A stretch of DNA of 43,627 bases from IMG/VR virus record IMGVR_UViG_3300009151_000127, positions 1 to 43,627 of that record, one strand, 5' to 3'. This document shows positions 538 to 30,149 of the stretch, piece by piece (positions within the stretch are counted from its first letter, which is position 1; each line of letters starts with the position of its first letter). The position numbers and the translations under genes were made by a program. The notes beneath the pieces were generated by a model. The model did no database searches and was not told the origin of the DNA. It was given only the letters and a program-made list of their open reading frames with translations. The DNA is from a virus.

Positions 538-552
538 GCAGTAGTTAGCAGT

Positions 553-10445: not shown

Positions 10446-13400
10446 ATGAGTTCAACGGATAGACAAAACAACCTGTTAATTAATCAGGATTGGAAGAAAA
10501 TATATCAAAGTTTCCGCAATGCAGATTTCCAAAGTTACGACTTTGAAAATTTACGCAGAACTATGATTGAGTATCTGCGTACTAATTATCCTGAAGATTT
10601 TAACGATTACATTGAATCTAGTGAATACCTTGCCCTAATTGACCTTATTGCGTTCCTAGGCCAAAGCATAGCTTTCCGCGTTGATTTAAATGCTCGTGAA
10701 AACTTTTTGGAACTGGCCGAACGCCGTGATAGTGTACTACGCCTAGCACGATTGATCAGTTACAACGCTAAACGCAATATTGCCGGACAAGGATTGCTAA
10801 AGTTTAATACAATTCAAACTACAGAAACAGTAGTTGACAGCAACGGCCGCAATCTAGCAGGTCAGGTAATTGCATGGAATGACCCAAGTAATACTAACTG
10901 GAACGACCAGTTTATCAAAGTTATGAATGCGGCACTCCCTGCATCACAACAATTTGGTAACCCTAGTGCCAAAGCAACAATCTACGGTATTCCTACAGGA
11001 CAATATCGATTTAGCGGCAGCAATACTGATCTACCGATCTATTCGTTTACTAAGATGGTGTCAGGCCGTCAGATGAATTTTGAAATCACTAGTACAACAT
11101 TTAGTGGAAAGTCATTTATATACGAAGAGGCACCTAAAATAGGTAACCACCCGGCTTGTATATACAGAGATGACGGCCACGGTGCAGGCAGTAGCGGTAC
11201 TGGATTTTTCTTTAATTTTACAGAAGGCACATTGAATGTTGGATCTTTCGTCATCGATCAACCTACTAGTAACGAATCAATAGATATAGATGCTCAGAAT
11301 ATTAATAATAATGATGTTTGGTTATATAGACTTGACCAAAAAGGTCTTGAGTCCGAGGCATGGACACAAGTTTCGTCAGTTACTGGTAATAATATTATCT
11401 ATAATAGCATCAGCAAAAACATTAAAAATATCTATAGTGTTATCACAAGAGCCGGCGATGCAATTAGCTTGAGTTTTAGCGACGGTACCTTTGGAACTCT
11501 CCCGTTAGGTACATTTAGAACTTATTACAGAGTGAGCAACGGATTAAATTATACCATTAACCCTGCAGATGTTCGAAACGTATCAATAACAATTCCATAT
11601 ACTTCTGTAACAGGATCACCTGAGACAATAACAATCTCATTAAACCTAGTCACTTCTGTGTCAAATGCTAGTCTTTCTGAAACCAATGCAGATGTTAAAA
11701 CCAATGCACCACAAACATACTATACGCAAAATCGCATGATCACTGGCGAGGATTATAACATTAGTCCGTTGTCTGTAACACAAGAAGTTGCAAAAGTTAA
11801 AGCAATCAATAGAGCTAGTAGTGGTATTAGTAGATATTTTGACCTAGCTGATCCAACAGGCAAATACAGCTCAACAAACTTGTTTGCAGATGATGGTATA
11901 TTGTATCAAAACTCTTACAGCTTTGATACACGATTTAAGTATGCTACTAGAACAGACATTGAGGGTGTTATCTATAATACTATATTTCCAATTCTTAAAA
12001 AACCTGATTTAAGAAATTTTTATTATGCAAATTATACCAAAGTAACAAATCCTAGCTTGATATTTTCTTGGTTTAGTATTTCAAGTGACTCTAGCTCATC
12101 TACAGGTTATCTCGGCTCATCTTCAAGTGCCCCGTACAAGGTAGGAACAGCCGCCACTAACGATCTAACATACTTGGTGCCACAGTCGCTAGTTAGATTT
12201 ACCGCGCCAGCAGGCAAATATTTTGATACCAAGAAAAAGAATATAGTAACATCAATACCTGCTAGCGGAATAGTTCCTGCCGGCGGCATAACTTATATAT
12301 GGGCTGAAGTGGTATCTGTTACAGGCGACGGCACAGCAGTAGCTCCACAAGGAGCAATCGTCCTAAATAGGGTAGTACCATCAACTGCTATAGTATCTCA
12401 AATTATTCCAAAACTATCTACCTCAATTGATACAACACTTATTACAACTATAATTGATTTAGTATTTGCTAATAAACCATTCGGGTTACGATATGATACT
12501 ACATTGCAGTCATGGCAAATTATTTTTGAATCTAACTTAGATATCTCTAGTAATTTTAGTTTGACTAATCAAGGTAACACATCAAACCTTGGATTAGATT
12601 CTAGTTGGATATTATTATTCACAACTGATAACGAATTCTATACTGTTACTACTCGACAGTTACAGTATGTTTTTGAAAGCAATTCACAAGTTAGATTTTA
12701 TTTTGATACAAATGAAAAGATCTATGATGTTACATCAAACACTGTAGTTAGCGATAAAATTAAAATATTAAGTGTTAATACTCAACCTGATAATACATCT
12801 GCATTTACCTATGATTTAGATTGGGATGTAGTTTCTGAAATTAACGGAATTGACGGTTATATAGATAATAAAAAAATAGCAGTGTCATTTGCTGATTCTG
12901 ATAATAACGGAGTAGTTGATAATCCGCAATTGTTTTTAGATATTGTAGATCCGTTAACATTGCCTCTTACAAAATATATTATTCAAGAAAAATATTCGAT
13001 ATCTGTTGGGCAGGAAGATTATCAATACATGGATAATTCTAATAATACTGTAATTATTAAGCAAAAAGAATCAGACACTGGATCGTTAACTCAGTATGCA
13101 GACGGCCAATATTTTTATTTTGTTACATCAAATGTTGTTAAGAAGTTAAATTTAAAATTAGGCCAACTTGTTCCTAATTTAGATTATAAAGTATATGTCG
13201 GCAGGGACAACTTAAAATTTCAATATACACATAGCGCAGATTATGAATCAAGAATTGATCCGGGAGTAAGTAATATAATTGACATTTATGTCCTAACAAA
13301 AAATTATGACACACAATTTAGACAATGGTTAAATGGTGCCGCAATATCAGAGCCGTTACCACCGAGTTCTGATCAATTACATGATACTATTGCACCTTCA

Positions 13401-13892
13401 TTGAATTTAATTAAATCAATTAGCGATGAAATTATATATCATCCAGTTAGCTATAGAATATTATTTGGAGCAACTGCTAGTACAAATCTACAAGCTATAT
13501 TTAAAATTACTAAAAATTCTAATAGTGTGGTTTCCGATAATGATATTAAAGCAAGAACTATAACTGCAATTAATCAATTTTTTAGTTTAGACAACTGGGA
13601 CTTTGGCGACACCTTTTATTTCTCTGAATTGTCGACATATATTATGACCCAGTTATCTCCTGACGTTACAAATTTTATTGTTGTTCCAAGAGAAAGCGGT
13701 GTTTACTTTGGAGGACTATTTGAAATAAAATGTCCAAGTAATCAGCTATTCATCAACGGCGCCACTGTATCTGATATTGAAATTATTTCAGGAATAACAT
13801 CAGGAAACATTAAATCAGTTACTGGATCAGCGTTGTCAACAGCCTCGTCAACACAAGTAATAACTAGTTCGTCATATGGAGCATCTAAATAA
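10446..13892 (+). CDS. 6: Baseplate wedge protein gp6
   Basis: This 1148-residue wedge protein has the conserved gp6 N-terminus: a DFENLRRTMIEYLRTNYPEDF stretch (about 30-50), then FLGQSIAFRVDLNARENFLE and RRDSVLRLARLISYNAKRN (about 94-113). A baseplate_J-like central region follows, with LPLGTFRTYYRVSNG and the TYYTQNRMITGEDYN motif. The C-terminus ends in Ser/Thr-rich repeats. In T4, dimers of gp6 form the ring that holds the wedges together. It is much longer than T4 gp6 (660); the extra length seems to lie in a beta-rich region (about 480-960). The stop overlaps the giant gene's start by one base (TAATG). Confidence 0.93.
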   Translation: MSSTDRQNNLLINQDWKKIYQSFRNADFQSYDFENLRRTMIEYLRTNYPEDFNDYIESSEYLALIDLIAFLGQSIAFRVDLNARENFLELAERRDSVLRLARLISYNAKRNIAGQGLLKFNTIQTTETVVDSNGRNLAGQVIAWNDPSNTNWNDQFIKVMNAALPASQQFGNPSAKATIYGIPTGQYRFSGSNTDLPIYSFTKMVSGRQMNFEITSTTFSGKSFIYEEAPKIGNHPACIYRDDGHGAGSSGTGFFFNFTEGTLNVGSFVIDQPTSNESIDIDAQNINNNDVWLYRLDQKGLESEAWTQVSSVTGNNIIYNSISKNIKNIYSVITRAGDAISLSFSDGTFGTLPLGTFRTYYRVSNGLNYTINPADVRNVSITIPYTSVTGSPETITISLNLVTSVSNASLSETNADVKTNAPQTYYTQNRMITGEDYNISPLSVTQEVAKVKAINRASSGISRYFDLADPTGKYSSTNLFADDGILYQNSYSFDTRFKYATRTDIEGVIYNTIFPILKKPDLRNFYYANYTKVTNPSLIFSWFSISSDSSSSTGYLGSSSSAPYKVGTAATNDLTYLVPQSLVRFTAPAGKYFDTKKKNIVTSIPASGIVPAGGITYIWAEVVSVTGDGTAVAPQGAIVLNRVVPSTAIVSQIIPKLSTSIDTTLITTIIDLVFANKPFGLRYDTTLQSWQIIFESNLDISSNFSLTNQGNTSNLGLDSSWILLFTTDNEFYTVTTRQLQYVFESNSQVRFYFDTNEKIYDVTSNTVVSDKIKILSVNTQPDNTSAFTYDLDWDVVSEINGIDGYIDNKKIAVSFADSDNNGVVDNPQLFLDIVDPLTLPLTKYIIQEKYSISVGQEDYQYMDNSNNTVIIKQKESDTGSLTQYADGQYFYFVTSNVVKKLNLKLGQLVPNLDYKVYVGRDNLKFQYTHSADYESRIDPGVSNIIDIYVLTKNYDTQFRQWLNGAAISEPLPPSSDQLHDTIAPSLNLIKSISDEIIYHPVSYRILFGATASTNLQAIFKITKNSNSVVSDNDIKARTITAINQFFSLDNWDFGDTFYFSELSTYIMTQLSPDVTNFIVVPRESGVYFGGLFEIKCPSNQLFINGATVSDIEIISGITSGNIKSVTGSALSTASSTQVITSSSYGASK

Positions 13893-16800
13893 TGGCTGAT
13901 AGTATCAACCCGTCTGGATCAAACAGCGTAGCCGCAAACTTTCTTCCAAATTTTTATAAAACTGATTCTAACAAGAAGTTTTTACAAGCAACTGTTGATC
14001 AGCTAGTACAACCTGGTACTGTTAAAAAGATTAACGGATACATTGGTCGTAAAAGTTCAAAAGCCACAGTTGGCAGCGATGTGTTTATCAATGCTCTGAC
14101 AGTAGAACGACAGAATTATCAGTTTGAACCTAGTTTTGTTGTCAATGATACACTAGGTAATACAACTTATTTTAAAGATTATATTGACTATATTAATCAG
14201 CTAGGGGTATTTGGAAGCAATACTTCAAATCATGCTAGATTAAACTCTCAAGAATTTTACAGTTGGAATCCTCATATCGACTGGGATAAATTTGTTAATT
14301 TTCAAAACTACTATTGGTTGCCATATGGTCCCGACCTTATCACAATCTATGGACAAAAGCAAAAGATCGACAGTACATATAATGTAACGGTTGAATCAGC
14401 AGGTGACGGAAATCAATACTTGTTCACACCTAACGGATTAACTCGTAATCCTGTACTTAGATTATATCGAGGACAAACATATAAATTTAAAATCAAAAGT
14501 CCCGGCAACCCGTTCAGTATTAAATTACTACCAACACTGGGAACATCTGACAGATATGTAATACCACAAATTGACAAGTACGGAGTTGTTGACGGCACAA
14601 TAACTGTAACGCTACCTCCTAACTCTCCTAGCATATTATATTATCAGAGTGAAACTGATCTGGCATTGAGCGGGGTAATCCAAGTATTTTCATTAGAAGA
14701 CAATACTGTAATTGATGTTGAACAAAATATATTAGGCAAAAAATACTATGTATTAGCTGACGGAACACCGTTGAGCAACGGTATGAAAGTGGCATTTGGT
14801 GGAACAGTTATTCCTGAAAAATATGCTACCGGAAACTATTATGTAGAAGGTGTAGGTACAGCAATCACACTAGTCAACGAAGCAGTGCTTGAAGTAGTGT
14901 TTCCATTCACAAGCAATGTTGCAGTATTATTTGATACAACTCCATTTGATACATTGCCGTTTAGTGACGTTGAGGGATATGCTGGTAAGACTGATTATAT
15001 TCTTTCTAATAGAGGCAGCGCAGACCATAACCCATGGGCACGATACAATCGATGGTTTCATAAAGATGTCATCGAAGAAAGCGCAACAGTTAACGGTAAA
15101 ACACCATCATTGGATCAAACAGCACGAGCTGTTCGTCCTATTATTGAATTTGAAGCAAATTTAAAGTTATTTAATTTTGGTACTAAAGCAGTAGACGACG
15201 TTGATCTAGTTGACACATTCACTAAGGATGTATTCTCGACCATTGAAGGATCTCTAGGATACAACATTGACGGTACCGCTCTTGCACCCGGACATCGAGT
15301 GTTGTTTACTGCGGATACTGACTTGTTAGTTAAAAATAAAATATATCAAGTTAGCTTTGTTAATATAGAAACTCGTCGACAAATACATTTAACTGAAATA
15401 TCTTCGCCGTCAGATAACGCTACTGTATTGGTAAAACAAGGATTGAAAAATCAAAGCCAAACATACTGGTATAGTAATAAAACTAAGGCTTGGAAGTTAG
15501 CTCAACAAAAGATAACAGTTAATCAGCCTCCACTATTTGATATAGTTGACGCGGCCTCAAACAGCTATGGAGATATTTCATATTATCCAGGATCAACATT
15601 TGTAGGCACAAAATTGTTTTCTTATAAAGTATCGTCTACCGGTACCGCTGATGCTGTATTGGGATTTCCGTTAACGTATAAAAATATTAATAATATTGGT
15701 GATATAGTTTTCAGCTTTGATCTAACTACAGATACATTTGATTATAAGAAAAACAATCTTAGTGTAGCAACCGTTAGGGCAGATTTAGGCTACTTAGTAA
15801 GTCAGGATTATATCGGAAATCCAATTTATATTAACGGCTGGAAGACTTGTGAAGTAGCAAATACACAAGCCGCCGTCAGAATTTATAAAAATTCAAGCAT
15901 CAAATACGATTTCAATATTGATATTTTTGATGACATATCAAAATTAAGTGACCTAGTTGTTAAAGTTTATATTAATGGCGTGTTATTAGACAACAGATAC
16001 TGGTCTGTTGTTACAAATTCTTTTTATAAATCAGTCAAGCTAGTTAATCCTCTAACTGATTCTCAAGTACTAACAATTAAAGCATATGCATCACAGCCTA
16101 TTAACAATAACGGCTATTATGAAATACCGTTAAACTTTCAAAATAATCCTCTTAATGATTATGTTACTACTTTTACACTAGGAGAGGTAAAGGATCATGT
16201 TAGTTCAATAATAGAAAACATACCGCCGGCCTTGCTGGCATTGGTTCCGCCTGATCCTGATCAACATACTCCGTTAACTACAGTTGGTAATATAACAACT
16301 GATCCCGATTATGTAAATCTTAGAGACCTAGGCAGTATAACTCAATACGGCACTAAGTTTGTACAGCATAGTGGTCCGGGAAGTCTATCGACTTATCATA
16401 TTACTTCTCAGACAAACAATATAGTACGATCAATAGAAAAAGCAAGAGAAGATTACAATAATTTTAAGAAAATAGTCTTGACAATTGCAGAAAAACTAGG
16501 AGTAGATTCTACCCCAGCAAAGCAAGTAGATTTAATCTTAGATAAGATTAATAAAGATAAACCAACTAACTTGCCATATTATTTTAGTGATATGGTTCCC
16601 TATGGCTCTGCTGTACGAACAGATATTAAAGTTGTTGATTATCGAATTAAAACTTATCCTCTAACTAATATTTTTACATTGGCTACGTTGAGTAATAAAG
16701 CAGTTGGCGTATACTTAAACGGAGTACAGTTAATACACAATAGCGAGTATACTTTTGACCAGACTGGGTTTGTAATCATTGCAGATAAAGTACAAATGGC

Positions 16801-19800
16801 TAACGGAAATATTATTACAACTTACGAATATGATAATACTGACGGAAGTTTTGTGCCAGAGACTCCGACTAAACTAGGTATATGGCCAAAATACGAACCT
16901 AAAATTTATCTTGACACTACATTGATTACTCCTAGAATGATGATTCAAGGACATGACGGAAGTCTAACGTTGGCATTTGGAGACTATCGAGATAATATTA
17001 TTTTAGAATTAGAAAAAAGAATCTTTAATAACATTAAGGTAGAATACGATCCTAAAATATATGACATTTTTAATGTTATTCCGAGCTACGGACACGATCA
17101 AATTTACAGTAGAACAGAATTTGATCAAACTCTTGCCCCGAGTTTTTATAAATGGACATCTTCAATTAATAGAGATTTTTCTAAACCTCTAAGTTACGAT
17201 AGAACAAATTCATTTACATACAATTACAAAGGACACGCTACTCCAGACGGAAAGGATGCACCTGCATACTGGAGAGGTATTTACACTTGGATGTATAACA
17301 CTGATCGTCCACATTTGTGTCCTTGGGAGATGCTAGGTTTTACAATTGAGCCTAACTGGTGGCAAGATACATATGGTCCAGCACCATACACTTGTAACAA
17401 TACCATACTATGGACAGATATCTCAAAAGGTGTAGTTAAGCAGCCTGGTGTGCCTCCAACTGTACTATCTCAATATATTAAGCCATGGTTGTTAGCTCAC
17501 CTACCAGTAGACGAATCAGGCGTTTTAATTAGCCCACTTCAGTCTGATGTGGTATCAGGTATAATTACCCCATCAACAAATAATGATTTTGTATTCGGTG
17601 ATAACAGTCCGGTTGAAGCAGCCTGGAGAAGAAGTAGTCACTATCCGTTTAGCATACTAATAACTTCTATGTTGTTAACCCCATCTAAAACTTTTGGATT
17701 AGTATTAGATCGATCAAGAATTGTAAGAGATTTAACAGGACAACTTGTATATAAAGAAACAAATCGACGTATACGACCGTCAGATATAGTCCTACCTAAT
17801 ATTTCTACAAGTTCTGCTCGGGTGCAAACAGCAGGAATTATCAACTATATTGTAAATTATATCTTAAGTGATAGTTTAAAATCTTACACTTCTTACAAAT
17901 ATGATTTATTAAACTTGTCAGCAAAACTTAGCTATCGTATTGGAGCTTTCAGCAGTAAAGAAAAATTCAATTTATTACTAGATAGCAAAACCCCGCTGAG
18001 TTCAGGCAGCATATTTGTTCCACAGGAAGATTATGATATTGTCTTAAACAGCTCAAGCCCCCTTAAGAAAATCACATACAGTGGAATTTTAGTAACAAAA
18101 TTATCTGACGGTTATGAATTAAAAGGTTATAGCCTAACTCAGCCATATTTTAATTATTACAATCATGTACAATCTGGCAATCCTCTCAACGTAGGTGGCA
18201 TCTCAGAAGGATTTTCACAGTGGACTGCTAATCAGCAATATGCTGCCGGCACTATTGTTAAGTACAATAATGTTTATTACAGAGTACAGGTCACTCATAC
18301 TGATACTGGAACATTTAAAGCATCTTACTTCCAAGCATTAAAATCAATTCCTATCATTGGTGGAAGAACTGTTATATCACGTAAGTTATGGGACAGAAGT
18401 GAATCGATTAGAATCCCATACGGAACTAAATTTGATACTATACAAGAAGTATACGATGTAATTATCGGATACGGTGAATGGTTAAAAGATCAAGGATTTG
18501 TTTTTGACGACTATAATCCTAACCTAGATGCAATTGCCAACTGGGAAACTAGCGGTAAAGAATTCTTATTCTGGACAACTCAAAACTGGTCATCAGGACA
18601 AGATAAATGGGCAGAGTGGACACCGGGTACTCCGATCGTATTTGATTCTATCTTGCGCTACAACGGAGATTATTACAAAGCTATTATAACTGCTCCGGGT
18701 TCTGCAATATTTGATCAAGAAGATTTTATCAAGCTAGAAGGATTAAGCACAGTTGGCAGTAGCGTTATTAGTCTAAGTCCGTCTGCAGGAAAATTAACTT
18801 TTAATACAAAATTATGTGTAATAGATGATATTAGAAATGCATTTAACGGCTATGAAATATTTAAAGTAGATGGCACACCATTAAATTCTGATTTCCTTCA
18901 GTCATATAGAAAAGAAAATTATGTTACCTATTCTCCTCAATCTAATGATGGGATTTATTGTGCAACATTTTATCTAGTACAAAAAGAACAAGTAGTACTT
19001 CTTAAAAATACTACCATGTTTAATGATACAATTTATAACCCACCGAGCGGTTACAAACAAGATCGAATTAAAGTATCAGGATATGTGAGTGAGAACTGGT
19101 ATGGCGGCTTTGATATTCCAGGATTTATATTTGATCAGGCTATCGTTGATTCTTGGGCCGCATGGAAAGATTATGCATTGGGGGATATTGTCAAGTATAA
19201 AGATTTTTATTATAGTGCTATTCATTTCCTATCAGGTACTGAAGCGTTTAATATATCTGACTGGGTAAAACTTGACAAACAACCAAAAGCACAATTACTA
19301 CCAAATTGGAATTACAAAGCAAATCAATTTACTGATTTCTATAATTTAGATAGTGATAACTTTGATATTAACCAACAAAAAGTAGCTCAACATCTTATTG
19401 GTTATCAAAAGCGACAGTATCTTGAAAATATTATACAGGATGACGTTAGCGAATTTAAATTTTATCAAGGAATGATTCGTGAAAAAGGTACACAAAATGT
19501 ACTTAATAAATTGTTTGATGTATTAAGCGCCGACGGAAAAGAAAGTTTAAACTTTTACGAAGAGTGGGCTGTAAGATCAGGACAATATGGCGCTAGTTCT
19601 GGATTTGAAAATATTGAATTTATTTTAGATGAGTCGTTATTTAAAAATAACCCGCAAGGATTTGAACTAGTAAATCAGATTGCTTCGACTAACTATTATG
19701 ATTTTATTATTAGACAAGCACCAGCTAGTGTTTATATAAAACCATTAGGCTATGTTTCTGCACCTTGGCCTAAATTACAAAATTATAATCCTTACTTACG

Positions 19801-22800
19801 AAGTGCGGGTTATGTAAGAGAAAGCGATATTGCATTCACTTTTAAATCAATTGATGAAGTACTAACAGCTGATATTAACTTGTTTAATAACGGTGATTAC
19901 ATTTGGTGTACATTTGAAGACACTTCGTGGAATGTTTACGAATATACAGATCTTAATTTGCGTGTATTAGAAGGTGAATTAAATGCAGGTGTTGTGTATA
20001 GTATTCCTAATAAAACTCTTACTATTAAGTGTGAAGATTTAATAACACTATCCGTAGGAACATATATTGGATTATCTGGAGTTACAGGATTAAACGGATT
20101 TTATAAAATTACGTCGATTGAATTAAATGCATTTACAGTCTCAGCTACTATTCCAGTCTGGCCGCTAACGCCACCTACTAGCGCACTTCCTACATGGACA
20201 CCTGCTAGCGATTTAATTGTGTATGCATTGATCAGCCGTAGAACATCATCTATCGACACGATCGATACTGCGGCATCTAGATCACTGTCTCCAGGAGAAT
20301 TGTTATGGACTGATGATAGCGGAACTGGAAAATGGGCATCGTGGATCTACAATCCAGTGTATTCGGAAGTCGATATTAAAAATTCTCTTCCTATAACTGA
20401 ATTAAAATACGGAAAAACATTAGCTATCAGTAAATCTGGGAATGTTGTAGCAATATTGAATGGCCTGGCAGAAACAATTATATACCAACGTTCTGGCCTA
20501 GCATGGGTGCAACAGCAAGTATTATCTAAACCGTTTATTGCTAAAGAAGTCTCTGGGTTTGACCCTAATCCAACCGCACGAGTCGGCGACGCCGCATCCT
20601 TCTCACCAGACGGCGCATGGTTTGCCATCGGTTCCCCATTAGTCAGCTATGCATCTACTAAGCTAGTCGGAGTCTGGTCTAATTCTGTAACTTATGCAGT
20701 TGACGATATTGTTTCAATAGGTAATGTATACTATCAAACACTACAGTCTGGCGTTGTTGGGATTAACCCGACAAGTAATAATATAGTATGGGAACTATTA
20801 CCGTATCTTAAAACAGACGCATTCGGAACAAATACTAATAGAACATTGCACGGCGCAGTTAGTTTATATAAAAGAAATCCGAACGGATTATATGATCCAG
20901 TTGATACTATACTAAGTCCACTATTTCAAACTAATGAACGATTTGGTTCAAGTTTAGTATTCGGAGATAACGAGCTATATGTATCTGCTCTAGGATACGA
21001 TACTAATAGAGGTCGTGTTTACAAGCTAAACTATACTACGATAGAACGTGTTTCTACAATGTATAACTCAGTTGGTAGTGAATTTGGCATATTAGCAGTT
21101 ACTTCAACTGCTGGAGTGCAGTCTAATATGTCCGTTATTGGCACAGGTTTTAAATCTGGCCAAACTGTTGCATATACTTTAACTAAACTATTTTTTGCTA
21201 TTGGCGATAGCATTTCAGCAGTTAAAGTTGGTATGTATGTAAGCGGAACAAATGTAACATTCCCTACACAAGTATATTCAATCTATTACGATCTAACCTC
21301 AACATATAGAGGGTATGTAGTAGTACAAGCTGAGCAAGATCTATCAAATATTTTAAATGTTACTTTTTCTGATACTACAACATCGCTAACTCGTACAGTA
21401 GTACAAGTGACACCGATGAACACAGTATTGTTAAGTGGCAGTCCTGATTCAGAGCCTAGCGGCATTATAAAATTTGTAACTATAAGTTGGGCACACGACT
21501 TATCTAAAATTTATGCCGGTGAAACAAATCAAAGTAACTTTGGAAATGCAATTTCGTTAAGTACTGATACTACAGTATTAAGTATATCTGCTTCAGCAGG
21601 CTCAGTTGCAGGTAAAGTTTATATCTACAAAAAGTCTGCCGGAACGTTTAGTACAATCCCTACGCAAACACTTGTAGGAATTGATTATAATTTTGGACAA
21701 GCGGTGTCGCTGTCTGACAGCGGCGAATATCTAGCAATATCAGACGATTTAACAGATGGTACTAGTATTATTCAACAAGGTAGAGTTAGTGTATATAAAT
21801 CTAACGGATCTACATACAGCCTATATCAAAATTTAGTAAATTATCAACCTCAGATAAATGGAAGATTTGGTAGCGAAATGTCGTTCATGAATGATTCTAA
21901 AACATTAGTTGTTTACAGTACACACGGAGATACTGATGTAGAATTAACATTTAATTACGATCAGGTATTACATCCGACTATCTCAGGAAATGCAACTACC
22001 TTTGATAAGAAATCTACAAATTTTGTAACAACTAATACAGATACTGGGCGTGTAGACATATACGATAGATACTCATCAAATTGGGTATTCAGTGAAACAT
22101 TATCTGCTGATACCCGAACTGCTTCTGGATACGGATCAGCAATTGCAGTTGGTAATAATAGTGTATTTGTCGGAGCACCATTTACAATTGATCAAGGGTT
22201 GCGTTCAGGTAAAGTTTATAACTATATTAAAAATACAAATACATATTCTTGGACAATTAAAGATATCGAAATTGACAAACCAGATCCTTATAAGATCAAA
22301 CAAGTATTTCTATATAATAAAACTACAGACCAGTTACTAAAAAAACTTGATGTTATTGATCCATTACAAGGAAAAATTCCAGGCATTGCTGCCGAAGAAA
22401 TAAAGTACTCTACTTTTTATGACCCGGCAATATATTCAGTAGGAACAGATGTTACTGTTGATGATAATGCCCAATGGACCACTGACCAAGTCGGTGCCTT
22501 ATGGTGGGATTTACGTACTGCTAAATTCATAGAAAGTTATGATTCATCAATATCCTACCGAAACAGCACATGGAACACTCTAGCACACGGAGCAAGTATT
22601 GATATATATGAATGGGTATCAACTACATTGCTTCCAGCAGAATGGGATAAGAGAACTGATACCGAAGTTGGCCTAGCTCAAGGAATTAGCGGAGTATCAT
22701 TATATGGAAATACTGCATATTCTGTAAAAAAGAAATATGATACAATAAGTCAAACATTTAAAAATACATATTGTTATTGGGTAAAAAATAAAAAAATTGT

Positions 22801-25800
22801 TCCTAATGTAGTAGGCAGACACATTTCCGCCGCTGAGGTATCTAACTTAATTGCAAATCCTAGAGGACAAGGATATACCTACATTGCAATAACAGGTCTA
22901 AATTCTTTTAGCTTAGTTAATACTAAATCATTATTAACTGATACAGATACTGTGTTGTCGGTAGAATACTGGACAATAGATAAAACTGATCAAAATATAC
23001 ATAGCCAGTGGAAATTAATTAATTCGTCTACTAGCACAACTATTCCTAAAAATATTGAAAAGAAATGGTTTGATAGTCTATGCGGTAAAGATGACTACGA
23101 TAGAGTAGTACCGGATATTAACCTTCCGATTAAATTACGTTATGGTATCGAAAATCGCCCACGTCAGGGAATGTTTATAAATCGTATTGAAGCTCTTAAA
23201 CAGGTAGTAGAAAAAGCAAATGCAGTTTTACTAAAAAATCAAATTGTTGAAAACAGAGATATATCAGCATTAAGCTCTTCGGAGGATTATCCAAGTTTAA
23301 TTTCCGGAAAATATGACACCACGGCTGATACAGCCGCAGAATTAGTCTATGCCAATGTTGGAGGATTTAAACGTCCAATACTATCACCGACGATAATTGA
23401 CGGAAAGATAACAGGTATTGTTATAACATATTCGGGACAAGGCTATGTTTCTGCACCGTATATTGATGTATTTGGATCAGGTGCCGATGCAAAAATTAGA
23501 ACTATAATTAGTACCGACGGGCTTGGAAAGATCATAGGTGCAACTATTTTAAATGCTGGATCGGGATATGATAATAGCACACTAGTATTAGTTAGAGATT
23601 ATTCAGTGTTAGTATATCAAGACGAAAATGCATCAAATAACTGGAGCATTTATTCATACGATCCGGTCGGTTTGCTTTGGTCAAGAATTAGAACTAAGAC
23701 ATATAATACCGCTGATTATTGGTCTAAGGTCGACTGGTATGCATCTGGTTATAGCTCTTTTACTGCCGCAGATTATTCTGTAAATACCTACTCGGGATTA
23801 TCTCAAATATCAGATTCTGTAGCTATCGGAAAATTAGTTATTGTGAGATACAGTGGAACATCTGGCTGGCAGCTTTTGGTAAAATATGCAAACTCAGTCA
23901 GTATTGATTGGACACAGTCATATAAGATAGTCGGTATAGAGAAAGGAACTATTCAACTTAATTCTGATTTATATAGTTTCTCAGGAACACCAGTTGGATA
24001 TGATGCTTCAACTTATGACGGAACAATGTTTGATACAGTTGCGTCAAACGAGTTAAGAATCATACTAACCGCATTACGAGATAATATTTTTATTGATGAC
24101 TTATCTAGTGCATATCTTGATTTGTTTTTTGTCAGCATACGTTATATATTCACAGAACAGTTGTATATTGATTGGGTTTTTAAAACTAGTTTTATCAAAG
24201 CAAAACATAATGTTGGCGAATTAAAACAACCAGTAACGTATCGCAACGATAATTTAAGTAACTTTGAAGATTATGTTAATGAGGTTAAACCTTATAGAAC
24301 TAACATTCGAGAATATATCAGTTCTTATGATAAAATTGACACTAGCCAAACATCTATTACTGATTTTGATTTGCCGTCAGCATATGAAAATAAAATCATC
24401 TCATCGATTCTAACTTCGATTAGTAATAATACTATTAACGTTGCAGACCCTATTGTAACAACATATCCGTGGAAACACTGGCTAGATAATATCGGCTACA
24501 CTGTAACATCTATCGAGTTAGTAAGTGCAGGCTCTGGCTATATTTCGGAACCTAAAGTGATTATTTCTAATGGTGCAGGAACAGGCGCAACAGCAACCGC
24601 ACTGGTATCCAACGGGTCAGTTAGCAGAATTATACTATTAACAAATGGTAAGAGATATTTGTCAGCTCCGACGATTACATTTGCCGGCGGCCTAGCTGCC
24701 GATGGAATTTCTGCAAGAGCAGTTGCTATAATTGGAACTAGTTCAGAATCAATAATCGGTAATAATGTTGTACGATCTAATTTAATAAAAATAAAATTCG
24801 ATCGAATTACCCAGTCCTATTTTATAACTACCTTACAGCAAACAGAAATAAAAACCGGAGCAAGTGGTCTATATCAATTTACACTAACATGGGCTCCGGA
24901 CATACGAATAGGAACATCAAGTGTTACTATTAATGGAGCATTAGTATTACGAGATTTGTACAAATTAAAGATCATACAATCTACCACCAAGGGATATACT
25001 AGTTATAGTGGCCTGTTAGAATTTACTACAGCGCCGGCAGTCGGCTCAGTTATTTCAATAACGTACTTGAAAGACTGGTCATTATTAAATGCTGCCGACC
25101 GTATTCAGTATTACTATAACCCGCGATCTGGAGATTTAGGTAAAGACTTATCTCAGCTAATGACCGGTATTGATTATGGTGGAGTCATTGTTGATGGTTT
25201 AAACTTTGACCTTAGTACCGGATGGGATTCAAACGGTTACGGAACTGATTCATGGGATGAATTTGATGATGGATTTGATGATTACATAACCGTAGTTCCG
25301 GCAAATACTCATTCATTTACTTTGCCATATGTTCCTGCAACAACAGCAGTGCTCAATGTTTACTATATAAAAAATATTGTAAATACCTACACGTCTAACG
25401 GAACACAAACCCAATACAAGTATAATATTACTAACACTCGACCAATTGTTACTGCTTCTTTTTCAGTTACCTCAACTGGCGTAGTTACTAAGACTACTGG
25501 CTCGGGTAATAGCGGAACTAGTCTAAAGGTATTAGATACAACTGGTATTGTTGTTGGAATGGGTATCATAGGAGCAGGTTTTAATTCATTACACATAGTA
25601 AAAGAGATAGTTAATTCAACCACCTTAAGAATCAACAAAGCGCCGATATCAGCCATTGGCCCGACTTTAGATTTTGTTAACAATTCTGCCGGGTCTAGTA
25701 CAATACTAGTTTCAAACACCTCCTCATTACGACTTGGTGATATAGTAACTAGCACAGCAGTTAACGCATTTAATTCTAATGCTAAAATTAAAACAATTGT

Positions 25801-28800
25801 CAACAGTACTACACTGATACTAGATCAAATTTTAATAGCTAATATCCCTAATAACTCAGCTATAACATTTTCTCGAGTATTAGTAACGCCAATCGACTTA
25901 ACAGTTTATGCAACCGGTACCATCACATTAGCTACACCGTTAGCATCCGGTACTGTATTGTCAATCGAAGGTCCAGCAACATCGATCAGAATTGATGATC
26001 CGTTTTTCGGAACAGTTAATCAAACTAACAATGCGGCTGTCATGCTATCACCAACAGGTACCGGATTGACTAGTACGTTTGTGATTCCAAACACTTTTGT
26101 AGTTAATAATAAAGATGAGTTTATTTGGAGAAAGAGCACAAGTGATGGATCTGTTGCTCCGCAAGTTGACTACGATTCAGCGATAAGCGGCGGCGACACT
26201 TCTAAAACTATAACTGGGGCATTTGCAACAGCAACTGGATTAGCAGCCGATGATATTATACTTGACGGTGACGGATTTGTAACACCGACTTCAAGTCCAG
26301 CACCGGAAGAAGTAGTTCCAGGACAAGTAGTTGATTCAGTAGCTATTAAAGTATATGATCAACCAAATTCAGGATCTGCTTCGGTAAAAATTGACAATTA
26401 CATTTCTAATGGAACACAATCGAGTTTTGTTATATCACAAACTCCTAATAGTCCAAGAGCTGTTATTGTTAAAATTGGTAATACCATTAAGACATACGCT
26501 ACAGATTACACAGTTGACTATAAGACTAAAACTATAAAGTTTGTTGTAGTTCCAACAGCCGGGCAAACAGTCAGTATTTTTAGTATTGGGTTTAGCGGTA
26601 AAAATATTTTAGATCTTGATAACACAACCGGCAACGGAACTACGGTTGAATTTATTACTAAAGCGCCGTGGCTAGCTGAGATTACATCATTAATATATCT
26701 AAACGGAAAAGCAGTAATTGCTCAATTATTTAAAACAGACACTACCTACGAAAGCCCAAATAGAGTAGGAATTAGATTTAGCACGGCGCCCGCTATCGGA
26801 GATTTAATTAATTATATTATTGTTAGCGGCACTCAACAGACATTTGCGGTAACTGCTACTGAAAAAATTATACCTACAGTTTCAGCGACTACTTTTCCAT
26901 TAACTTACCCTATTGGAAACTCACTACCGAATGAAGCTAGTATTATAGTTAGAGTTGATCAAACAATTCTACCCGGACCAAGTAACACATATTATACGAT
27001 TGGAAGCAATAAATTAAACTACTCGATCGGTGCAAGTACATTTACCCCAGGATCTTTGAATTCATCAGATATAACAGTGCTAGCAGATAGTAAATTACTA
27101 AAAGTAGGTGCTGACTATTCTGTTGATCTTAACGGTATTACTGTAAAGATTAATAAACGTGTTTATAATTTAAACAAAGGAAAACAGTTAGTTATAATAG
27201 TTTCAGCTGACGCAGGATATATTTACTATCCGCCAACACAAAACACTATAACATTATCAACCGGAAAAACTGGAACCGGCCCATATCAAGCAACATTTAG
27301 GATTGCCCAACAAGATACTCCACCGTTAACTGGTGTAAATTATATCATAGCTGGAAATGCTAATCCATTATATAACGGAACGTATACCTGTACTGCTAGT
27401 ACTGTAACATCGATTACATTACAGTATGCATTAGATCCAGGCGCTTATTCAATAGCCCACGAAACTACAATAACTCCTGTAGCTGGTAGTATTGTTTTTG
27501 CTCAAGCATACACATCTTCTAATCTTATAGAAATTATTAGTTCATATCAGCATGATATATTGGATATTAATAGAACAAGTGTTAGCGTATCTTTCTCACA
27601 GTCAGTTGTAGCAGATACTCCAGAGTACTATTATTACAAAGATATTGCCGGTGGACGACTAGTGTTATCAAGACCAGTAATAGATGACGGATATGTATGG
27701 GTAACAAAAAATAATATATTACTATCTCCAACTGTTGATTACAAAGTCAATGATAGTAAAGATAGTATTACGCTAGCAGTATCTCCGCAATTAAATGATA
27801 AATTTATGTTAATTACTTTTAGTAGTAACATTATCACTGCCGGTGTTGCTTATATGCAATTTAAAGATATGCTTAATAGGGTACATTATAAGAGACTAAG
27901 TGTCAATAAGAAAACAACACTAGTACAAGATTTAAATTTCAATGATTTACAGATTGTAGTTGCTGATGCTAGTAATTTTGATAAACCTAATCTTTCACAA
28001 AATAAACCAGGCGTAATTGAAATCAAAGGTGAACGAATTGAATATTTTGTGTTGACCGGTAATACATTGAGTAATATTCGCCGAGGCACGTTAGGCACTG
28101 GAATCCCTAACAAACATGTAAGCAGTTCAATAGTGCAGGATATAGGACCAAGCGAAACTATACCTTATGTTGACACTTCTTTAACTGAGCAAATAGTATC
28201 TGACGGCACAACAACAATTCCGTTGTCCTATACTCCTGCTAACGTAAACGAAATTGAAGTATTTGTTGGCGGCTACGATATATCAGAATGGCTACCAAAT
28301 ACTAATTATTTTGTTGGAACTATATTTTCATATGCTAGCTATACTTACAAAGTGACAGTAAATCATACAAGCGGCTCAACATGGGGAGACGTAGTTAATA
28401 CAATACAACAAGATGGAACTATTATAGCTAGAAAGATTTCTGCTAATTTAGTATACATGTTTTTTATTGGAAATATTCGATTACGTAAACGTACATATAC
28501 AATGCATAATAGTAATATCGCTCCTAATAGTCCAGAAGGTGATATAACACTTTCTGCAGATTTCACAGTAGACGGTATCACTAATAAGATCACATTGCTT
28601 ACACCATTGCGTGTGGGAACTCGTGTAACAGTTATAAAACGCACTGGAATTAATTGGGATATTGGCTTAAATAATGATAGTAAGATTAGTAATTTCTTAA
28701 AAGCAACTCCTGGAATCAGCTATTCTCCGTTAAGAACAAGTGTTCCTACAGTTCTTAGTGCAACAAGTTTTGATAGTAATAACGGAACACTCGATACGAG

Positions 28801-28828
28801 TAGTATAACATTCGATAAACAAGGATAA
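13892..28828 (+). CDS. Giant mosaic baseplate/tail protein (gp7 position)
   Basis: This is a 4978-residue virion protein in a single uninterrupted frame, directly after gp6 where T4 has gp7 (1032 residues). The N-terminus has NFLPNFYKTDSNKKFLQATV and HIDWDKFVNFQNYYWLP (about 129-145), which I associate with marine T4-like structural proteins. Later parts include a conserved Trp-rich region (about 1127-1168), five carbohydrate-binding-like WxxxxxY motifs (at about 1444, 1573, 1755, 2262 and 4800), a seven-repeat FG-GAP-like propeller (2173-2780), GxGYxxxP repeats (3174-3234, 3537-3600), a DYVNEVKPYRTNIREY motif (about 3458-3473), many beta repeats (about 3730-4550) and a C-terminal RRGTLGTGIP module. 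No enzyme motif was recognised. Gp7-like wedge-initiator function is inferred from position only. Confidence 0.9.
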   Translation: MADSINPSGSNSVAANFLPNFYKTDSNKKFLQATVDQLVQPGTVKKINGYIGRKSSKATVGSDVFINALTVERQNYQFEPSFVVNDTLGNTTYFKDYIDYINQLGVFGSNTSNHARLNSQEFYSWNPHIDWDKFVNFQNYYWLPYGPDLITIYGQKQKIDSTYNVTVESAGDGNQYLFTPNGLTRNPVLRLYRGQTYKFKIKSPGNPFSIKLLPTLGTSDRYVIPQIDKYGVVDGTITVTLPPNSPSILYYQSETDLALSGVIQVFSLEDNTVIDVEQNILGKKYYVLADGTPLSNGMKVAFGGTVIPEKYATGNYYVEGVGTAITLVNEAVLEVVFPFTSNVAVLFDTTPFDTLPFSDVEGYAGKTDYILSNRGSADHNPWARYNRWFHKDVIEESATVNGKTPSLDQTARAVRPIIEFEANLKLFNFGTKAVDDVDLVDTFTKDVFSTIEGSLGYNIDGTALAPGHRVLFTADTDLLVKNKIYQVSFVNIETRRQIHLTEISSPSDNATVLVKQGLKNQSQTYWYSNKTKAWKLAQQKITVNQPPLFDIVDAASNSYGDISYYPGSTFVGTKLFSYKVSSTGTADAVLGFPLTYKNINNIGDIVFSFDLTTDTFDYKKNNLSVATVRADLGYLVSQDYIGNPIYINGWKTCEVANTQAAVRIYKNSSIKYDFNIDIFDDISKLSDLVVKVYINGVLLDNRYWSVVTNSFYKSVKLVNPLTDSQVLTIKAYASQPINNNGYYEIPLNFQNNPLNDYVTTFTLGEVKDHVSSIIENIPPALLALVPPDPDQHTPLTTVGNITTDPDYVNLRDLGSITQYGTKFVQHSGPGSLSTYHITSQTNNIVRSIEKAREDYNNFKKIVLTIAEKLGVDSTPAKQVDLILDKINKDKPTNLPYYFSDMVPYGSAVRTDIKVVDYRIKTYPLTNIFTLATLSNKAVGVYLNGVQLIHNSEYTFDQTGFVIIADKVQMANGNIITTYEYDNTDGSFVPETPTKLGIWPKYEPKIYLDTTLITPRMMIQGHDGSLTLAFGDYRDNIILELEKRIFNNIKVEYDPKIYDIFNVIPSYGHDQIYSRTEFDQTLAPSFYKWTSSINRDFSKPLSYDRTNSFTYNYKGHATPDGKDAPAYWRGIYTWMYNTDRPHLCPWEMLGFTIEPNWWQDTYGPAPYTCNNTILWTDISKGVVKQPGVPPTVLSQYIKPWLLAHLPVDESGVLISPLQSDVVSGIITPSTNNDFVFGDNSPVEAAWRRSSHYPFSILITSMLLTPSKTFGLVLDRSRIVRDLTGQLVYKETNRRIRPSDIVLPNISTSSARVQTAGIINYIVNYILSDSLKSYTSYKYDLLNLSAKLSYRIGAFSSKEKFNLLLDSKTPLSSGSIFVPQEDYDIVLNSSSPLKKITYSGILVTKLSDGYELKGYSLTQPYFNYYNHVQSGNPLNVGGISEGFSQWTANQQYAAGTIVKYNNVYYRVQVTHTDTGTFKASYFQALKSIPIIGGRTVISRKLWDRSESIRIPYGTKFDTIQEVYDVIIGYGEWLKDQGFVFDDYNPNLDAIANWETSGKEFLFWTTQNWSSGQDKWAEWTPGTPIVFDSILRYNGDYYKAIITAPGSAIFDQEDFIKLEGLSTVGSSVISLSPSAGKLTFNTKLCVIDDIRNAFNGYEIFKVDGTPLNSDFLQSYRKENYVTYSPQSNDGIYCATFYLVQKEQVVLLKNTTMFNDTIYNPPSGYKQDRIKVSGYVSENWYGGFDIPGFIFDQAIVDSWAAWKDYALGDIVKYKDFYYSAIHFLSGTEAFNISDWVKLDKQPKAQLLPNWNYKANQFTDFYNLDSDNFDINQQKVAQHLIGYQKRQYLENIIQDDVSEFKFYQGMIREKGTQNVLNKLFDVLSADGKESLNFYEEWAVRSGQYGASSGFENIEFILDESLFKNNPQGFELVNQIASTNYYDFIIRQAPASVYIKPLGYVSAPWPKLQNYNPYLRSAGYVRESDIAFTFKSIDEVLTADINLFNNGDYIWCTFEDTSWNVYEYTDLNLRVLEGELNAGVVYSIPNKTLTIKCEDLITLSVGTYIGLSGVTGLNGFYKITSIELNAFTVSATIPVWPLTPPTSALPTWTPASDLIVYALISRRTSSIDTIDTAASRSLSPGELLWTDDSGTGKWASWIYNPVYSEVDIKNSLPITELKYGKTLAISKSGNVVAILNGLAETIIYQRSGLAWVQQQVLSKPFIAKEVSGFDPNPTARVGDAASFSPDGAWFAIGSPLVSYASTKLVGVWSNSVTYAVDDIVSIGNVYYQTLQSGVVGINPTSNNIVWELLPYLKTDAFGTNTNRTLHGAVSLYKRNPNGLYDPVDTILSPLFQTNERFGSSLVFGDNELYVSALGYDTNRGRVYKLNYTTIERVSTMYNSVGSEFGILAVTSTAGVQSNMSVIGTGFKSGQTVAYTLTKLFFAIGDSISAVKVGMYVSGTNVTFPTQVYSIYYDLTSTYRGYVVVQAEQDLSNILNVTFSDTTTSLTRTVVQVTPMNTVLLSGSPDSEPSGIIKFVTISWAHDLSKIYAGETNQSNFGNAISLSTDTTVLSISASAGSVAGKVYIYKKSAGTFSTIPTQTLVGIDYNFGQAVSLSDSGEYLAISDDLTDGTSIIQQGRVSVYKSNGSTYSLYQNLVNYQPQINGRFGSEMSFMNDSKTLVVYSTHGDTDVELTFNYDQVLHPTISGNATTFDKKSTNFVTTNTDTGRVDIYDRYSSNWVFSETLSADTRTASGYGSAIAVGNNSVFVGAPFTIDQGLRSGKVYNYIKNTNTYSWTIKDIEIDKPDPYKIKQVFLYNKTTDQLLKKLDVIDPLQGKIPGIAAEEIKYSTFYDPAIYSVGTDVTVDDNAQWTTDQVGALWWDLRTAKFIESYDSSISYRNSTWNTLAHGASIDIYEWVSTTLLPAEWDKRTDTEVGLAQGISGVSLYGNTAYSVKKKYDTISQTFKNTYCYWVKNKKIVPNVVGRHISAAEVSNLIANPRGQGYTYIAITGLNSFSLVNTKSLLTDTDTVLSVEYWTIDKTDQNIHSQWKLINSSTSTTIPKNIEKKWFDSLCGKDDYDRVVPDINLPIKLRYGIENRPRQGMFINRIEALKQVVEKANAVLLKNQIVENRDISALSSSEDYPSLISGKYDTTADTAAELVYANVGGFKRPILSPTIIDGKITGIVITYSGQGYVSAPYIDVFGSGADAKIRTIISTDGLGKIIGATILNAGSGYDNSTLVLVRDYSVLVYQDENASNNWSIYSYDPVGLLWSRIRTKTYNTADYWSKVDWYASGYSSFTAADYSVNTYSGLSQISDSVAIGKLVIVRYSGTSGWQLLVKYANSVSIDWTQSYKIVGIEKGTIQLNSDLYSFSGTPVGYDASTYDGTMFDTVASNELRIILTALRDNIFIDDLSSAYLDLFFVSIRYIFTEQLYIDWVFKTSFIKAKHNVGELKQPVTYRNDNLSNFEDYVNEVKPYRTNIREYISSYDKIDTSQTSITDFDLPSAYENKIISSILTSISNNTINVADPIVTTYPWKHWLDNIGYTVTSIELVSAGSGYISEPKVIISNGAGTGATATALVSNGSVSRIILLTNGKRYLSAPTITFAGGLAADGISARAVAIIGTSSESIIGNNVVRSNLIKIKFDRITQSYFITTLQQTEIKTGASGLYQFTLTWAPDIRIGTSSVTINGALVLRDLYKLKIIQSTTKGYTSYSGLLEFTTAPAVGSVISITYLKDWSLLNAADRIQYYYNPRSGDLGKDLSQLMTGIDYGGVIVDGLNFDLSTGWDSNGYGTDSWDEFDDGFDDYITVVPANTHSFTLPYVPATTAVLNVYYIKNIVNTYTSNGTQTQYKYNITNTRPIVTASFSVTSTGVVTKTTGSGNSGTSLKVLDTTGIVVGMGIIGAGFNSLHIVKEIVNSTTLRINKAPISAIGPTLDFVNNSAGSSTILVSNTSSLRLGDIVTSTAVNAFNSNAKIKTIVNSTTLILDQILIANIPNNSAITFSRVLVTPIDLTVYATGTITLATPLASGTVLSIEGPATSIRIDDPFFGTVNQTNNAAVMLSPTGTGLTSTFVIPNTFVVNNKDEFIWRKSTSDGSVAPQVDYDSAISGGDTSKTITGAFATATGLAADDIILDGDGFVTPTSSPAPEEVVPGQVVDSVAIKVYDQPNSGSASVKIDNYISNGTQSSFVISQTPNSPRAVIVKIGNTIKTYATDYTVDYKTKTIKFVVVPTAGQTVSIFSIGFSGKNILDLDNTTGNGTTVEFITKAPWLAEITSLIYLNGKAVIAQLFKTDTTYESPNRVGIRFSTAPAIGDLINYIIVSGTQQTFAVTATEKIIPTVSATTFPLTYPIGNSLPNEASIIVRVDQTILPGPSNTYYTIGSNKLNYSIGASTFTPGSLNSSDITVLADSKLLKVGADYSVDLNGITVKINKRVYNLNKGKQLVIIVSADAGYIYYPPTQNTITLSTGKTGTGPYQATFRIAQQDTPPLTGVNYIIAGNANPLYNGTYTCTASTVTSITLQYALDPGAYSIAHETTITPVAGSIVFAQAYTSSNLIEIISSYQHDILDINRTSVSVSFSQSVVADTPEYYYYKDIAGGRLVLSRPVIDDGYVWVTKNNILLSPTVDYKVNDSKDSITLAVSPQLNDKFMLITFSSNIITAGVAYMQFKDMLNRVHYKRLSVNKKTTLVQDLNFNDLQIVVADASNFDKPNLSQNKPGVIEIKGERIEYFVLTGNTLSNIRRGTLGTGIPNKHVSSSIVQDIGPSETIPYVDTSLTEQIVSDGTTTIPLSYTPANVNEIEVFVGGYDISEWLPNTNYFVGTIFSYASYTYKVTVNHTSGSTWGDVVNTIQQDGTIIARKISANLVYMFFIGNIRLRKRTYTMHNSNIAPNSPEGDITLSADFTVDGITNKITLLTPLRVGTRVTVIKRTGINWDIGLNNDSKISNFLKATPGISYSPLRTSVPTVLSATSFDSNNGTLDTSSITFDKQG
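18221..18340 (+). other. Carbohydrate-binding-like motif cluster 1 within the giant protein
   Basis: Residues 1444-1483 read W-x5-Y-x2-G-x2-V-x6-YY, with conserved aromatic residues as in ChtBD3/CBM5/12-type binding modules. Comparable segments start at nucleotides 18608 (a looser match), 19154, 20675 and 28289. The short length and the aromatic pattern are seen directly; sugar binding is inference. Confidence 0.55.
20408..22235 (+). other. Seven-repeat FG-GAP-like propeller within the giant protein
   Basis: Seven segments begin with an aromatic-or-hydrophobic/Gly pair followed by a beta strand and, in several, a Gly-x-Val-x-x-Tyr strand. They start at residues 2173 (YGKTLAIS), 2230 (RVGDAASF), 2350 (RFGSSLVF), 2549 (NFGNAISL), 2600 (NFGQAVSL), 2658 (RFGSEMSF) and 2746 (GYGSAIAV). 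The Ca-binding DxDxDG loops of integrin-type FG-GAP are absent, so it looks more like the FG-GAP_2 type. A sugar-binding-like motif interrupts repeats 2 and 3, and a beta domain interrupts repeats 3 and 4. Confidence 0.65.
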
Positions 28829-28832
28829 CAAG

Positions 28833-30149
28833 ATGGCGCAACAACTCTTAAACGCAGGTTCAACTGCAAATGACGGCACTGGGGATACTCTTCGGTCAGG
28901 TGCAATAAAAATAAATGCAAATTTTGCTGAACTATATGCAAACAGTACTTCTCAAATTCCTACTCAAACTGGAAATAGTGGTTTATTTTTAGCAACTAAC
29001 GGATCCACATTAAGTTGGGCAAATCCGTCAGCTAGTGCGTATCCTTCTCAATCTGGCCAAACTGGAAAGTTCTTATCAACTAACGGAACATCTGTTAGCT
29101 GGTCAGATGTGGTTATCGGTAATGCTAGCACAGTAACTAACGGAGTCTATACTAACGGAAGCTATGCAGATCCTAGTTGGATCACAAGTCTAGCAGGTAG
29201 TAAAGTTACTAATGCTGTGCTAACAACTTCAGTACAAGCAGACCCTGCCTGGTTAACTTCATTGGCTGTTAGCAAAGTTACTAATGCAGTATCGAGTGCT
29301 AGTACCTATGCAGATCCTAGCTGGATTACAAGTCTAGCAGGATCAAAATTATCTGGAACAGTAGTGGCAACAAACGGTGTAGTTACCTCTGGTACCTATG
29401 CAGATCCTGCATGGATTACAAGTCTAGCAGTATCAAAGTTAACCGGCACAATTATAGCAACGAACGGAGTTACTACTGTTGGCAGCTATGCAGATCCTAG
29501 CTGGATCACAAGTCTCGGTGAAACAAAAGTCCTACCAACTCAATCAGGCAGCAGTGGAAGATTTCTTACAACTAATGGAACATCTACTAGTTGGGCTACT
29601 GTCGATGCTACACCAACACAAACCGGTAACAGTGGCAAGTATTTAACTACTAATGGTACAGTACTTAGTTGGGGAACACCTAGCGGCACGATACCAACAC
29701 AAACTGGTAATAGCGGAAAATATTTAACTACTGACGGCACTAACGCAAGTTGGGCAACAGTGGCTGGACTAGTATCTCGAACAACAGTGTCGGCTACCAC
29801 TGCAAGTATAGCTAACAATGCCAATGCTAATGCAGATATTACTGGATTTAAATCCTATGCATTATTAAAAATTCAAACATCGGCAGCAGCCTGGGTCCGA
29901 ATATATTCAGACGCCGCATCTAGAACTGCTGATGCATCGAGAGCATCTACTATCGATCCGTTACCTAGTGCCGGAGTTATTGCTGAAGTAATCACAACTA
30001 GTGCGCAGACAATTCTTATAAGTCCAGGAGCATTTGGGTTTAACAGTGAAAGTTCGCCTACTACAACTATCCCAGTAAACATTACAAATCTTTCCGGCGC
30101 TGCCGCGGCAATTACTGCTACATTAACAGTACTACAGTTGGAAGCATAA
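28833..30149 (+). CDS. Repeat-rich tail fibre protein
   Basis: This 438-residue fibre-like protein starts 4 bases after the giant gene. Its N-terminus (AGSTANDGTGDTLRSGAIKI, about 8-27) is the attachment motif seen in many phage fibre proteins. Two repeat families follow: five exact-length 20-residue copies of a PTQTGNSGKYLTTNGTxxSW unit, and five copies of a YADPSWITSLAxSK unit. The C-terminal about 100 residues form a distinct beta domain (AAAWVRIYSDAASRTADASR ... IPVNITNLSGAAAAITATL), which I have seen on other marine phage fibres. A role in host contact is likely by composition and position. An AAGGA site precedes the ATG. No enzyme motif is visible. Confidence 0.82.
   Translation: MAQQLLNAGSTANDGTGDTLRSGAIKINANFAELYANSTSQIPTQTGNSGLFLATNGSTLSWANPSASAYPSQSGQTGKFLSTNGTSVSWSDVVIGNASTVTNGVYTNGSYADPSWITSLAGSKVTNAVLTTSVQADPAWLTSLAVSKVTNAVSSASTYADPSWITSLAGSKLSGTVVATNGVVTSGTYADPAWITSLAVSKLTGTIIATNGVTTVGSYADPSWITSLGETKVLPTQSGSSGRFLTTNGTSTSWATVDATPTQTGNSGKYLTTNGTVLSWGTPSGTIPTQTGNSGKYLTTDGTNASWATVAGLVSRTTVSATTASIANNANANADITGFKSYALLKIQTSAAAWVRIYSDAASRTADASRASTIDPLPSAGVIAEVITTSAQTILISPGAFGFNSESSPTTTIPVNITNLSGAAAAITATLTVLQLEA
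28959..29753 (+). repeat. Five 60-bp repeats in the fibre gene
   Basis: Copies lie at 28959-29018, 29043-29102, 29535-29594, 29613-29672 and 29694-29753. Each encodes 20 residues of the pattern [PS]xQxGxxGxxLxTxGTxxSW. The protein is more conserved than the DNA, so selection appears to act on the repeat protein, although copies 4 and 5 are also close at DNA level. Confidence 0.85.
29163..29530 (+). repeat. Tandem 72- and 90-bp repeats in the fibre gene
   Basis: Five tandem units begin at 29163, 29235, 29307, 29397 and 29487, so the first two periods are 72 bases and the next two 90 bases. Each encodes (Y/Q)ADP(S/A)W(I/L)TSL followed by a variable tail. The 18-base difference is a six-residue insertion (about ATNGV[VT]) present in the last two full units. 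Confidence 0.85.

Follow-up and report, generated by a model that had tools for sequence, protein, structure and literature searches.

Baseplate propellers in described phages and the giant of the window

Beta-propellers in phage baseplates were already known. PhiKZ gp131C (PDB 4GBF), on the periphery of the baseplate of a jumbo phage, was a beta-propeller with seven blades and a suspected receptor-binding domain, and the receptor-binding protein (RBP) of Staphylococcus phage phi11 (Gp45) had a baseplate beta-propeller thought to bind the GlcNAc of wall teichoic acid (PMC4901313). In phage CBB, Kelch-type propellers were encoded by separate genes, one of which was detected in virions (PMC5259590). 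The propeller analysed here resembled gp131C in its seven predicted blades and in belonging to a jumbo-phage baseplate, but the gp131C propeller was the C-terminal domain of its own protein, whereas ours was an insertion in a hairpin of a conserved protein core. The phi11 RBP was likewise a beta-propeller in a baseplate, but it had five blades, was trimeric with a stem and a tower, and was a separate protein. What was new in our case was the place in the operon, the graft in one core hairpin, the apparent history of one gain and one loss, and a domain that was the least conserved part of its giant and carried inserts on few loops. A full-text search of one literature library for FG-GAP together with baseplate and phage found no paper.

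The stretch of DNA that we analysed (the window) was a 43.6-kb virus record with a T4-like baseplate-type gene order. Namely, a hub/lysozyme gene was followed by gp25, a gp6-like gene, the giant, a gp9/10-like gene, a subtilase and collar/fibre-like proteins:

8283..9935 (+), baseplate hub/lysozyme-like gene (phrog_13211)
9945..10394 (+), gp25-like wedge protein (PF04965, 9.8e-12)
10446..13892 (+), gp6-like wedge protein (phrog_10646/219)
13892..28828 (+), baseplate giant, 4978 aa (phrog_10938 family; gp7/gp8 position in the T4-like baseplate operon)
13892..19969 (+), left part of the conserved core, residues 1-2026 (tblastn/blastp matches in jumbo phages)
22238..23230 (+), right part of the conserved core, residues 2783-3113
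28833..30149 (+), protein with a T4 gp9/gp10-like N-terminal domain (PF07880, 6.6e-7)

Since the order in T4 was gp6, gp7, gp8 and gp9, the giant lay in the gp7/gp8 place, and its location was that of the T4 gp7 wedge, between gp6 and gp8/gp9. We dropped the idea that it was a gp7 homologue by sequence: profile comparison over its first 1000 residues detected none (hhalign probability 0.1%), and a PDB search with its N-terminal profile gave no match. Therefore, the baseplate placement rested on gene order and on relatives. The phrog_10938 profile scored 1046 bits on the giant, and this family was also present in RaK2, PA5oct, Atu_ph07 and CBB, with RaK2 gp465 matching the profile over its full length. 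The giants of RaK2, CBB and PA5oct shared the homologous core and the operon place, and in RaK2 and PA5oct the giant, including its hairpin region, was without a propeller. Two cultured relatives provided virion proteomics: PA5oct gp355 was detected in the virion (record note 'ESI-MS/MS'), and CBB_236, the giant-family gene in CBB, was represented by 21 peptides in mass spectrometry of CBB virions (PMC5259590 Table 4). These data, together with the gene order, supported a baseplate-wedge protein filling the gp7/gp8 place of a jumbo T4-like phage, in agreement with the original prediction of a phage baseplate giant. Nearly all such giants of jumbo phages were labelled just as 'virion structural protein'.

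Several other genes of the window were of separate interest. A subtilisin-like protease (PF00082, 2.1e-24) was located at 30151-31812, right after the gp9/10-like gene in the baseplate/tail operon, and was possibly virion-borne. The fibre-like protein at 36356-37852 had a weak match to Peptidase_G2 (IMC autoproteolytic), under the cut-off. On the opposite strand (103-4652), a SegE-like GIY-YIG homing endonuclease (103-537) stood beside AAA/SMC and metallophosphoesterase genes resembling gp46/gp47.

Evidence for a seven-bladed propeller

It had been predicted that the interval 20408-22235, residues 2173-2782 of the ORF 13892-28828 (+), encoded a seven-bladed FG-GAP-like propeller with units starting at residues 2173, 2230, 2350, 2549, 2600, 2658 and 2746. 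Our analysis assigned residues 2171-2793 of the giant to the propeller. The Pfam family FG-GAP_2 (PF14312) scored 29.0 bits on residues 2125-2835, above its cut-off of 23, and matched 38 of 51 relatives (best 3.9e-17). When the whole giant was scanned, the score was 17.1 bits, under the cut-off, with the best stretch at 2739-2776 in blade 7; the window was thus marginal by itself and the relatives carried the argument. WD40 matches occurred in 5 of the 51 relatives, and we took them as general propeller similarity rather than membership of that family.

We then used a blade HMM trained on the relatives, from which the window and its 81% relative were excluded. Against all 4978 residues it matched only at 2171, 2236, 2348, 2548, 2600, 2656 and 2745, that is, at just the predicted units, with nothing better than E = 0.03 elsewhere:

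20402..20527 (+), blade 1, residues 2171-2212 (blade HMM 4e-8; model strands)
20582..20911 (+), blade 2, residues 2231-2340, interrupted between strands 2 and 3 (model strands; blade HMM weak because of the split)
20933..21520 (+), blade 3, residues 2348-2543, interrupted between strands 3 and 4 (blade HMM 9e-6)
21533..21676 (+), blade 4, residues 2548-2595 (blade HMM 1e-11)
21686..21838 (+), blade 5, residues 2599-2649 (blade HMM 2e-14)
21857..22105 (+), blade 6, residues 2656-2738, with a 43-aa 2-3 loop (blade HMM 1e-13)
22124..22267 (+), blade 7, residues 2745-2792 (blade HMM 2e-12)

Because the HMM was trained on orthologous blades, it was no proof of internal repetition on its own, and for this reason a model built from six blades was scored on the seventh and compared with the best of 200 shuffles. 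Blades 3, 4, 5 and 6 scored above all 200 shuffles (11.0, 23.3, 21.3 and 11.1 bits, respectively). Blades 1 and 7 were correctly placed, with scores (7.3 and 5.6 bits) that did not exceed those of the best shuffles. The model did not recover blade 2, which was split by an insert.

Structure prediction pointed to the same fold. The AlphaFold2 model of the region, based on 51 sequences, had pLDDT 88.3 and pTM 0.84, and Foldseek returned integrin alpha-5 first (E 6e-10), at a low TM that was probably due to the inserts. Since the inserts clouded this comparison, we also modelled an insert-free relative, L065 (pLDDT 86.7, pTM 0.87). Each of its best 36 PDB matches was an integrin alpha chain, with E values between 1e-13 and 4e-11 and a target TM of no more than 0.66, and these matches spanned the whole domain. 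Its strand list consisted of seven sets of four, which would fit a closed ring, and the seven blades were present in both predicted models. Thus, profile search, predicted structure and fold search concurred in confirming the region as a seven-bladed FG-GAP_2-type beta-propeller, as originally proposed.

Integrin alpha chains, the best fold matches, had seven FG-GAP-type blades as well, but the propeller of the giant differed from them in having no calcium loops, about 16% identity and no other integrin domains. The lack of integrin-type calcium loops had been foreseen: the motif D-x-[DN]-x-D-G between strands 1 and 2 was absent from the giant and from 50 relatives, and PF01839 (integrin-type FG-GAP) was not among the Pfam matches listed. 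PhiKZ gp131C was found neither among the PDB sequence matches of the propeller profile nor among the best 50 fold matches. Some of the Foldseek matches were GH74 xyloglucan hydrolases, and gp131C has also been suggested to be an enzyme (PMC4901313, the phi11 paper), so that a glycan hydrolase or lyase degrading the envelope from the baseplate had to be considered. However, the GH74 matches had TM < 0.2, no Pfam enzyme family was matched and integrin propellers headed the matches of the insert-free relative, which made an enzyme very improbable.

When phage records were searched for the propeller itself, at the DNA level and by tblastn, there was no match, with the exception of a weak one between the propeller of a distant relative (L134) and cyanophage S-MbCM6. 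The giant of this cyanophage (7022 aa, T4-GC_108) was similar to that of the window in its operon place (gp25, gp6, giant, gp9, gp10) and in its FG-GAP_2 stretch (1.4e-38), and it also contained LamG (Laminin_G_3) and YHYH. It had no match to either core profile; apparently its propeller had been grafted independently into a different giant, or else the core homology had been lost. Integrin-like FG-GAP propellers thus occurred in giants encoded by the baseplate operons of two or more separate T4-like phage groups. The S-MbCM6 gene (L169, 6780-27848) was annotated just as a virion structural protein.

Insertion in the core hairpin, gain and loss

The propeller was flanked by the two strands of a core hairpin:

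20330..20353 (+), first strand KWASWIYN, residues 2147-2154 (empty-site alignment with L111, SCTP-2 and L086)
22244..22270 (+), second strand YSWTIKDIE, residues 2785-2793 (empty-site alignment; model strand 663-668)

It started after the first strand, and in the model the second strand also completed blade 7 as its final strand. The hairpin region was kept without the propeller in RaK2, PA5oct, SCTP-2, L086, L115 and L111, and RaK2 had about 80 residues where the window giant had 750. Across the empty site, the chain read NRWAVYYFNSGKWNLDYKEQDVIDCNLM in SCTP-2 and GELIWVDENTNNKWAVYKKGVYSWAQYRTQVDSVDLSKI in L111, while in the window it read GELLWTDDSGTGKWASWIYN, then the propeller, then NTYSWTIKDIEIDKPDPYKI. 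According to this alignment, the propeller replaced the turn of the hairpin. Since its two ends met at one spot, the core could keep its fold with or without the propeller, and the graft need not have disturbed it. From the predicted secondary structure and the empty sites we infer that the propeller was attached at blade 7.

The relatives were collected by a search with the core rather than with the propeller, and this gave 59 unique slots, 34 with a propeller and 25 without. On the right-core tree the propeller label needed only two changes, compared with a mean of 24.5 in 500 shuffles, and a deep clade had the propeller in 66 of its 67 rows. A tree built from the two flanks of the slot, with 36 rows and 1229 columns, agreed, and the AU test rejected a grouping of the propeller-bearing rows without L111 (p = 6e-17). 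According to the simplest account of these trees, the propeller was gained once by the ancestor of the deep clade and was lost once, cleanly, from L111, where the hairpin was empty and intact and the remainder of the giant was intact as well. It was also possible that a propeller-less segment was recombined into L111 instead of a deletion. Relocation of the propeller within L111 was considered and dropped, as no FG-GAP_2 match was found elsewhere in its 353-kb contig, which may be incomplete. One gain and one loss implied that the propeller was an optional module. Being a relative that naturally had no propeller although it fell within the propeller-bearing clade, L111 offered a good comparison for the role of the propeller.

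Could the propeller be a mere spacer or stabiliser that filled volume in a larger baseplate and had no partner? The giants of the phrog_10938 family were long and had many beta-modules, and propeller-less relatives often had other material between the same anchors. This explanation was nevertheless very improbable, because a single origin retained across the deep clade argued for a role and because the sugar-binding-type inserts described below would be needless for a spacer. We also considered that the slot of the propeller-less lineages housed other known binding domains, and rejected it since Pfam found none there above the cut-off; the slot of SCTP-2 appeared LamG-like by eye and had no Pfam match.

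The propeller diverged faster than the rest of the protein. Its mean identity to 35 relatives over all positions was 0.30, as against 0.56 for the N-terminal core and 0.55 for the right core, and the least conserved segments of the whole giant lay within it. Blades 6 and 7, which adjoined the core, were among the better conserved blades. High divergence can also result from relaxed constraint.

Loop inserts and the role of the propeller

The loops were measured against the L065 strands in 50 relatives. The 1-2 loops were nearly invariant (0-8 residues, mostly 2-5). Additions of at least 25 residues were concentrated in the 2-3 loop of blade 2 (38/50) and the 3-4 loop of blade 3 (45/50); they were less frequent in the 4-1 loop between blades 1 and 2 (14/50) and the 2-3 loop of blade 6 (9/50), and rare between blades 3 and 4 (3/50) and blades 6 and 7 (2/50). 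In the window giant, the corresponding loops had 73 aa in blade 2, 151 aa in blade 3 and 43 aa in blade 6, which bore out the claim that two units were split by inserted domains:

20675..20806 (+), CBM5/12-like module within the 2-3 loop of blade 2, residues 2262-2305 (family HMM 1.2e-5)
21044..21496 (+), all-beta module within the 3-4 loop of blade 3, residues 2385-2535

The first insert corresponded to the carbohydrate-binding-like motif predicted at residue 2262. On the whole giant, Pfam CBM_5_12 (PF02839) scored 45.6 bits (cut-off 26.2; 6.9e-12), and the window giant had five CBM5/12-like copies in total. Such copies were present in 21 of 122 unique slots, namely in 20 propellers and in Atu_ph07, and their position varied by phage, either in blade 2 or between blades 1 and 2. 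Their profile match suggested modules of a sugar-binding type. The module of the blade 3 insert recurred at residues 3872-3978 of the giant. In integrins, the I domain is an insert on a propeller blade loop, and integrin alpha thus resembled the propeller of the giant in having inserts on blade loops.

We consider, with a probability of roughly 60%, that the propeller was exposed on the baseplate as an optional module for contact with the host. A host-contact surface was the best reading because the propeller was not always present, diverged fast and bore inserts of a sugar-binding type, and because the phi11 RBP and PhiKZ gp131C provided precedents. The large inserts on few loops, with 1-2 loops that hardly changed, also fitted an exposed surface facing the host. 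According to the proposed mechanism, the propeller, grafted between the strand ending at 2154 and the strand starting at 2785, would stand out from the baseplate, anchored at blade 7. Together with its loop inserts (CBM5/12-like on blade 2, all-beta on blade 3) it would form an accessory surface, which might touch or hold the host envelope, either a glycan or a protein, before the contractile tail fires. On the other hand, the downstream tail-fibre genes could do all the receptor binding.

The main competing explanation was a platform for protein-protein docking inside the virion, for example for tail fibres, the S8 protease or the neighbouring wedge. Propellers commonly serve as protein docking domains, the better conserved blades 6 and 7 lay beside the core, and several fibre-like genes and the subtilase were encoded downstream. 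However, L111 had cleanly lost the propeller with the rest of its giant intact, the propeller was the least conserved part of the protein with large variable inserts, and some inserts were of a sugar-binding type; we therefore regard docking as a less likely role, with about one chance in four.

A bolder and rather doubtful extension would be that the core hairpin served to dock a removable unit for host recognition. In that case, the propeller would be a self-contained module that could be gained, lost or fitted with different sugar-binding inserts while the wedge was undisturbed, and it would determine host range at the baseplate itself, separately from the tail fibres. For this variable part of the baseplate giant, the fold, the precise site of insertion and the evolutionary history were now described, and the empty sites served as a natural control, so that the role of the propeller became testable.

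Related modules were observed elsewhere. GSGY-type repeats, which occupied residues 3160-3235 (about 23369-23596) and 3537-3621 (about 24500-24754) of the giant, matched phrog_460 and recurred in Atu_ph07, Phosso and the S-MbCM6 giant, as a beta-module common to baseplate giants. Moreover, Sinorhizobium phage Phosso (L167, PV764938) had two adjacent ORFs annotated as hypothetical (48338-57826 and 57900-68978, about 3160 and 3690 aa), which held most of its 36 FG-GAP_2 matches (best 5e-13) and appeared to encode FG-GAP arrays of great length, located outside the baseplate operon.
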